From Methanotrichaceae archaeon (lineage in GTDB: Archaea; Halobacteriota; Methanosarcinia; Methanotrichales; Methanotrichaceae), in the NCBI GenBank assembly GCA_013178225.1, contig JABLXE010000002.1:1-64000 (forward strand): a stretch of DNA of 64,000 bases, written 5' to 3'. The notes under the pieces are model-generated. The model was not told the origin of the DNA and searched no databases. It saw nothing but the letters and a program-made list of their open reading frames with translations. Numbering within the stretch: position 1 is the stretch's first letter; each line of letters starts with the position of its first letter. Positions 50,954 to 51,408 of the stretch are shown piece by piece. A program made the translations under genes and the position numbers.

Positions 50954-51055
50954 TTCTTCACCTGAATTTTGCTTAGATCGGACCCTCAAGGGAGCAACAG
51001 ATATAAAGCATGGCTTCTAGTTAGAAGGGCTGGGCCGGGGTGGCAGAGCGGACAA

Positions 51056-51102
51056 ATTCTCTCGCTAGGGGCCGTAAACAGCCAACTGCGCGAGGAGTTC
51101 AA
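51056..51102 (+). other. tRNA-Ser intron 1 (D-loop)
   Basis: The 47-nt insert is bounded by identical AAA bulges (51054-51056 and 51101-51103). The 4-bp central helix is GGAC (51050-51053) with GTTC (51097-51100). The internal helix is TTCTC-T-CGC with GCG-C-GAGGA. A small GGC/GCC hairpin lies in the loop. The exact cut within AAA is ambiguous, but the product is the same. Confidence 0.8.
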
Positions 51103-51153
51103 ACGCGGCAGGCTCGAGACCTGTTGTCCCTTCCAGGGACGCTTGGGTTCAAA

Positions 51154-51184
51154 ATGGTAGGCCGCCAGAGACCTTCCAGGAAAA
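51154..51184 (+). other. tRNA-Ser intron 2 (T-loop)
   Basis: The 31-nt insert sits between T-loop bases: 5' side TTCA-AAA-TGG, 3' side CCA-GGAA-AAT. TTC pairs GAA plus an A/G mismatch as central helix, flanked by 3-nt bulges. The helix TGG-x-AGG with CCT-x-CCA closes the intron. Confidence 0.8.
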
Positions 51185-51255
51185 TCCCAACCCCGGCGCT
51201 ATTTATCTCCCATAAGCTTGATATGGTCGCAGATAACTGAATCGAGTTGATACTA

Positions 51256-51405
51256 ATGGCCAGATTTCCTGAAGCTGAAAAGAGAACCCTGAACATCAAG
51301 ATCTGCATGAATTGCAATGCCCGAAATCCATTGCGAGCAACCAGATGCCGCAAATGTCACTACCGCGGCCTGAGAATGAAGTCCAAGGAGAGCAAGTCCG
51401 CATAG
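51256..51405 (+). CDS. rpl40e: 50S ribosomal protein L40e
   Basis: The 49-residue protein [39 protein letters not shown] matches archaeal L40e, with the zinc-binding CxxC pairs (ICMNCNAR and CRKCHYR) and the basic C-terminus. CTATTTATC (51199-51207), just after the tRNA, is a likely TATA box. The stop lies three bases before the GGGP synthase start. It is smaller than most gene finders' cut-off. Confidence 0.93.
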
Positions 51406-51408
51406 AGC

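Follow-up and report, generated by a model that had tools for sequence, protein, structure and literature searches.

The 64,000-nucleotide stretch of archaeal DNA analysed here (the window) very probably carries a functional, single-copy tRNA-Ser(CGA) gene with two introns of the EndA type, at position 21/22 in the D-loop and at 59/60 in the T-loop, which would be spliced by an alpha2 EndA and a ligase. The gene occupies positions 51034-51198 of the + strand and comprises the acceptor strand GCCGGGG, D-arm, anticodon arm, long variable arm, T-arm and CCCCGGC-G, with one insert in each of the two loops. The predicted spliced tRNA-Ser(CGA) is 87 nt long with the T-loop UUCAAAU. A preliminary description of this DNA had proposed a tRNA-Ser(CGA) with two introns outside the anticodon loop, with insert lengths of 47 and 31 nt, the bulges listed below and this T-loop after removal. 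These details are borne out as claimed, and the identification itself by the ARAGORN call after double removal, by covariation and by intron-free alleles. The parts of the locus are as follows.

51000-51009, + strand: putative promoter element, TATA-box-like (GATATAAAGC), which lies 25-34 nt ahead of the 5' end of the mature tRNA
51034-51055, + strand: exon 1, with the acceptor 5' strand GCCGGGG, UG, D-stem GCA and D-loop GAGCGGAC followed by AA
51050-51053, + strand: GGAC, 5' strand of the central helix of the D-intron; its partner is GUUC at 51097-51100
51056-51102, + strand: D-loop intron, 47 nt, at about tRNA position 21/22; bulge-helix-bulge (BHB) register AA/A ... AA/A
51103-51153, + strand: exon 2, with A, D-stem 3' strand CGC and anticodon arm GCAGG-CUCGAGA-CCUGU (CGA), as called by ARAGORN on the spliced molecule
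within 51103-51153, + strand: rest of exon 2, with the long variable arm, T-stem UUGGG and UUCAAA
51154-51184, + strand: T-loop intron, 31 nt, at position 59/60; T-stem as outer helix, UUC/GAA as centre, bulges AAA and AAU
51163-51170, + strand: tip of the T-intron hairpin, CG-N(3-6)-AG (CGCCAGAG), conserved among relatives
51185-51198, + strand: exon 3, with U60, T-stem CCCAA, acceptor CCCCGGC and discriminator G73, read from the sequence
51257-51406, + strand: ribosomal protein L40e gene, a neighbour outside the tRNA; start codon assigned by visual inspection of the L40e-like translation

Intron borders were set by one rule, which places the cut between bases two and three of every 3-nt bulge. 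The rule also fits the ordinary introns of the genome at 37/38, for example that of tRNA-Lys(UUU) with bulges UAA and AUA, where cut placement follows the standard reading. In tRNA-Ser(CGA) the anticodon loop CUCGAGA is intact and neither insert lies at the canonical 37/38 position; an anticodon-loop intron was dropped as a candidate for this gene, the loop being uninterrupted.

On the raw window, ARAGORN returned Ile, Phe and Val tRNAs only and missed the Ser(CGA) gene. With edited versions of the locus, tRNA-Ser(cga) was called only when both inserts were taken out, and no call was obtained with zero or one removed. Removal of the two inserts restores a standard tRNA, as judged both by ARAGORN and by intron-free alleles. 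As this case shows, genes of this kind can escape common tRNA finders; tRNAscan-SE 2.0 includes an intron model trained on Crenarchaeota and Euryarchaeota. A whole-genome search with RF00005 gave 44 places, and tRNA-Ser(GCU) and tRNA-Ser(GGA) were among those read by eye. Using the gene of a relative as query, tRNA-Ser(UGA) was retrieved from the same genome and has an anticodon-loop insert. A second intact Ser(CGA) gene, which, with this locus silent, would by the preliminary description have spoken against its proposal, was found neither among the RF00005 matches nor by BLAST of the locus, which gave one significant place. Permuted and split versions were considered as well and not found by the same two means. 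An upstream SNORD58 match from an Rfam cmscan of the locus was below threshold and is taken as chance. We also observed a second, shortened copy of tRNA-Leu(GAG) in which part of the acceptor stem is missing (L093, G000:C23:231858-231935).

We compared the gene across its family, as the preliminary description had suggested. In the 42 family genomes with a parsed gene (that of the window and 41 others), the inserts always interrupt the tRNA at the same two positions; the T-intron is a fixed trait of the whole family. Positions 51034-51053 are identical in 42/42, and a single exon-1 sequence stands against 30 distinct D inserts and 38 distinct T inserts, with lengths of 31-47 nt (D) and 30-44 nt (T). 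The T-arm and 3' part of the acceptor have one sequence in 40/42, and in one other genome the stem changes are matched. An L40e-like ORF follows the gene in all 42 genomes, and an element resembling GATATAAAGC occupies the same upstream place in most of these aligned genes, the DNA between element and gene not being conserved. Element and synteny both support a putative working gene. The T-intron was recovered in 44 of the 50 family genomes, 43 by pattern search plus G033, whose gene is split over two contigs.

These data bear on the possibility that the locus is no longer a working gene but a decayed or silenced copy carrying two random insertions, with UCG read by Ser(UGA). Reading of UCG by U34 of Ser(UGA), which the genome does encode, is possible in principle, and a Ser(CGA) gene need then not be essential; a decayed copy would also fit the failure of ARAGORN to see the gene and the six family genomes that show no copy. 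Such an origin is nevertheless very unlikely, given exons that are nearly invariant, introns that diverge but keep their structure, and a promoter-like element and synteny maintained in 42 genomes. The six copy-less genomes are all drafts with no trace of the gene, and no intron-free Ser(CGA) allele was seen among the 50 family genomes.

The T-intron appeared in 38 contigs of a collection scan of named records, nearly all labelled Methanothrix, Methanosaeta, Methanotrichaceae or Methanosarcinales. One contig labelled Candidatus Micrarchaeota (L211) has the T-loop intron pattern of the family; it probably belongs to a mislabelled or mixed MAG. A gapped-pattern search for T-loop introns in the other tRNAs of the family gave three unrelated-looking matches besides Ser(CGA) (G002, G004, G012).

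The wider distribution was established with 60 relatives and 238 genomes of the class, from which 76 genes were parsed (one more failed to parse); families are numbered f1 (that of the window), f2, f3 and so on. Both introns are present in 42/42 parsed f1 genes, and the D-intron occurs without the T-intron in f3 (19 parsed genes), f4 (4) and f5 (4). Neither is present in f6 (3 genes) and f7 (2), which read GGAC-UAA-CGC straight through the predicted D junction; the two f2 genes (L074, L075) also lack both, have UAA-UGC and carry a short anticodon-loop insert instead. The T-loop is an uninterrupted UUCRAAU in f3-f7. Outside the class, reading of sampled genomes of the phylum by eye gave a D-intron in f8 and f33 and none in f12, f18, f21 and f31. 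Four families of the class, and a further two elsewhere in the phylum, thus have the D-intron, and the T-intron was found only in the family of the window; the D-intron is not peculiar to this organism or genus. The earlier suggestion that such introns are unusual for methanogens fits the older literature but not the genomes, where the D-intron is present in the majority of the families sampled in the class and also in some beyond it. The D-intron is old and widely shared, more so than the preliminary description supposed, and the T-intron marks one family. In five genomes of genera g18 and g19 (G052, G055, G059, G060, G216), BLAST gave no homologous tRNA-Ser(CGA); the sole match in each was a short T-arm match, and at the three of these loci that were read it belonged to a tRNA-Lys. 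These genomes may have lost the gene or may carry a strongly diverged form of it. In f8, which belongs to another class of the phylum, Ser(CGA) has a D-loop intron of about 17 nt and an apparent second BHB intron in the variable arm, not in the T-loop as in the window (L244-L248); the predicted fold of G238 likewise has a BHB-like variable-arm insert.

The same comparison bears on whether the inserts are removed at all. Both could be real but persist in the mature RNA, which would then have enlarged D- and T-loops, and RNAfold does favour compact hairpins in both. Retention is extremely unlikely: insert lengths vary, the positions of bulges and central helices are conserved, and the relatives without inserts lack them at exactly the predicted junctions. 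Removal leaves the A12-C23 mismatch of the D-stem, noted in the preliminary description, which is real. It is found in the spliced f1, f3 and f4 tRNAs and in those of the intron-free f6 and f7 (f5 and f2 have U23), and its presence in intron-free relatives means that it is not a sign of a wrong splice site. A12-C23 is native to this tRNA in several families, whether or not the gene has introns, and may be edited or form a protonated A-C pair.

The analysis demonstrates the anatomy of the gene, its conservation and covariation, the existence of intron-free alleles and the type of enzyme; we infer transcription, cutting, joining and the order of intron removal. In the proposed pathway, the precursor would form a BHB at each site: at the D-site, GGAC/GUYY with 3-nt bulges and an intron helix, and at the T-site, UUC(A)/(K)GAA atop the T-stem, again with 3-nt bulges and an intron helix. 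The alpha2 endonuclease would cut after the second base of each bulge, and the ligase would join the three exons into an 87-nt tRNA with the D-loop GGACAAA and the T-loop UUCAAAU. The junction sequences predicted for the spliced Ser(CGA) are GGACAAA(or UAA)CGC and UUCAAAUCCC. Because introns interrupt the two loops that build the tRNA elbow, measuring of the body would be unavailable before splicing; it is therefore probably the BHB motifs that direct the cutting, rather than a measurement from the mature body.

Thermodynamic folding alone was indecisive, and we therefore relied on conservation and on the costs of forced folds. At the D-site, where bulges and centre read GGAC-AAA / GUUC-AAA, all four central pairs GGAC/GU(C,U)(C,U) are kept in 40/40 distinct rows (G-C or G-U, A-U, C-G). 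The two 3-nt bulges are separated by a 4-bp helix, and this was the best relaxed BHB in an unbiased scan of the window's precursor. The intron helix beyond the bulges has two-sided changes at all five pairs. The outer helix of the strict hBHBh' form is absent, with C-C/C-U and G-G opposed in every row. The missing outer helix speaks against the model, and so does RNAfold, which gives the D central helix a probability near 0 in the window's own precursor and prefers other pairings there and in many members, often with a GCG/YGC outer helix; an alternative register with this outer helix and a 3-bp centre is possible. The D-loop motif is of the relaxed kind (HBh'/BHL-like), its regular outer helix missing.

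At the T-site, bulges and centre read UUCA-AAA / GGAA-AAU, and the T-stem and UUC/GAA are kept in all 28 distinct rows. The fourth central position is A-G in 22/28 distinct rows, A-U in five and G-G in one; it is not formed in the window, and the central helix always has 3 pairs. The A-G mismatch likewise counts against the model. Outer helix, two 3-nt bulges and intron helix are all present, the latter with two-sided changes at all five pairs. This motif is close to the strict BHB form. Of the BHB-like folds proposed for both inserts, the 3-nt bulges thus stand at both sites, with a relaxed D-site lacking the outer helix and a near-strict T-site.

The whole D motif has 34 two-sided cells, compared with a shuffle value of 12.0, and a covariation of 0.383, compared with 0.226; the T-site has 24 such cells (8.3 in shuffles) and a covariation of 0.175 (0.084). 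These values come from alignments that join the two intron ends at fixed offsets, with no fitting by a structure program. At both sites all 500 shuffles fell short of the observed values for paired cells, two-sided cells and covariation score, the rows being related and the shuffles ignoring kinship. Registers slid by 1 to 3 columns gave far lower scores at both sites. Forcing the motif in the window's precursor costs 4.9 kcal/mol (D) and 2.9 kcal/mol (T) over the free fold, compared with 0-5.7 kcal/mol for six of the genome's ordinary introns, in which the bulge pair UAA/AUA recurs often, in a scan somewhat generous to both sites (no D-site outer helix required, one T-site mismatch allowed). 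A seventh ordinary intron, in Arg(GCG), gave no strict motif.

The two introns could also leave by different routes, for example the D-intron by EndA and the T hairpin by another RNase followed by joining. Motif strictness does differ between the sites, and the hairpin tip CG-N(3-6)-AG is conserved beyond the need of splicing: it occurs in 36/38 distinct T-introns against 16 expected from shuffles, on stems that diverge. Separate routes remain very improbable in view of the 3-nt bulges that both sites have and of the cut geometry that both share with the ordinary introns of the genome.

The preliminary description had guessed a homodimeric endonuclease, and the sole EndA found in the genome, an ORF of 352 aa with two tRNA_int_endo domains, is of the ordinary fused alpha2 type. 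It aligns over most of its length to the alpha2 enzyme of A. fulgidus. In 60/61 genomes PF01974 matched two domains, both within a single ORF whose listed lengths are 348-413 aa. Neither the second subunit gene nor the lysine loop of the broad-specificity enzymes, (alpha-beta)2 with CSL or epsilon2 with ASL, was found. In all family sequences where the motif is readable, the loop at the CSL site has the length seen in A. fulgidus alpha2; chain 3p1y of the same enzyme has an insert there, an extra stretch that we interpret as the crenarchaeal loop described in the review literature.

Enzymes of the alpha2 and alpha4 types are associated with single strict BHB introns at 37/38, and those of the (alpha-beta)2 and epsilon2 types with relaxed and multiple introns (PMC4090602, PMC4033280, PMC6379350). 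That alpha2 enzymes reportedly cut relaxed motifs poorly (PMC6379350) counts against our model; a BHL intron located at 37/38 in a full-length pre-tRNA is nonetheless noted there as a substrate that A. fulgidus EndA removes (PMC6379350). The present introns resemble canonical 37/38 BHB introns, of which the same genome has at least six with similar bulges, in their 3-nt bulges, central helix of about 4 bp, intron helix and cut after the second bulge base, but differ in their location in the D- and T-loops, in the lack of an outer helix at the D-site and in the 3-bp centre plus mismatch at the T-site. Like the Thermoproteales (Pyrobaculum and relatives), where 59/60 is a listed intron site (PMC4090602), the family has a single tRNA whose two introns both lie outside the anticodon loop. 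Thermoproteales have numerous introns of this kind and an (alpha-beta)2 EndA that bears a lineage-specific loop, whereas here the enzyme is alpha2 and loopless, and one such gene was found per genome. More than one intron in a tRNA is also listed for two euryarchaeal methanogens, Methanopyrus kandleri and Methanothermobacter thermautotrophicus (PMC4033280 Table 1), but the M. kandleri enzyme is (alpha-beta)2 and the family of the window is absent from that table; three thermophilic euryarchaeal methanogens with noncanonical introns are mentioned elsewhere (PMC3218864). The element is of a known kind, in a setting where reviews exclude it, and these introns may have been catalogued earlier.

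We lean towards the view that an alpha2 EndA without a specificity loop routinely removes both introns, that the rule of strict, single, anticodon-loop introns is wrong in a large part of the methanogen tree, and that the enzyme type did not change when relaxed introns arose. The genes provide natural assay substrates, a relaxed D-site and a near-strict T-site, with intron-free sister alleles as controls. They also form an evolutionary series, with D-introns from 17 to 47 nt, a T-intron gained in one family and possibly a variable-arm intron gained in another. Across dozens of genomes, the gene family would be a natural counterexample to the alpha2 half of the enzyme-intron rule.
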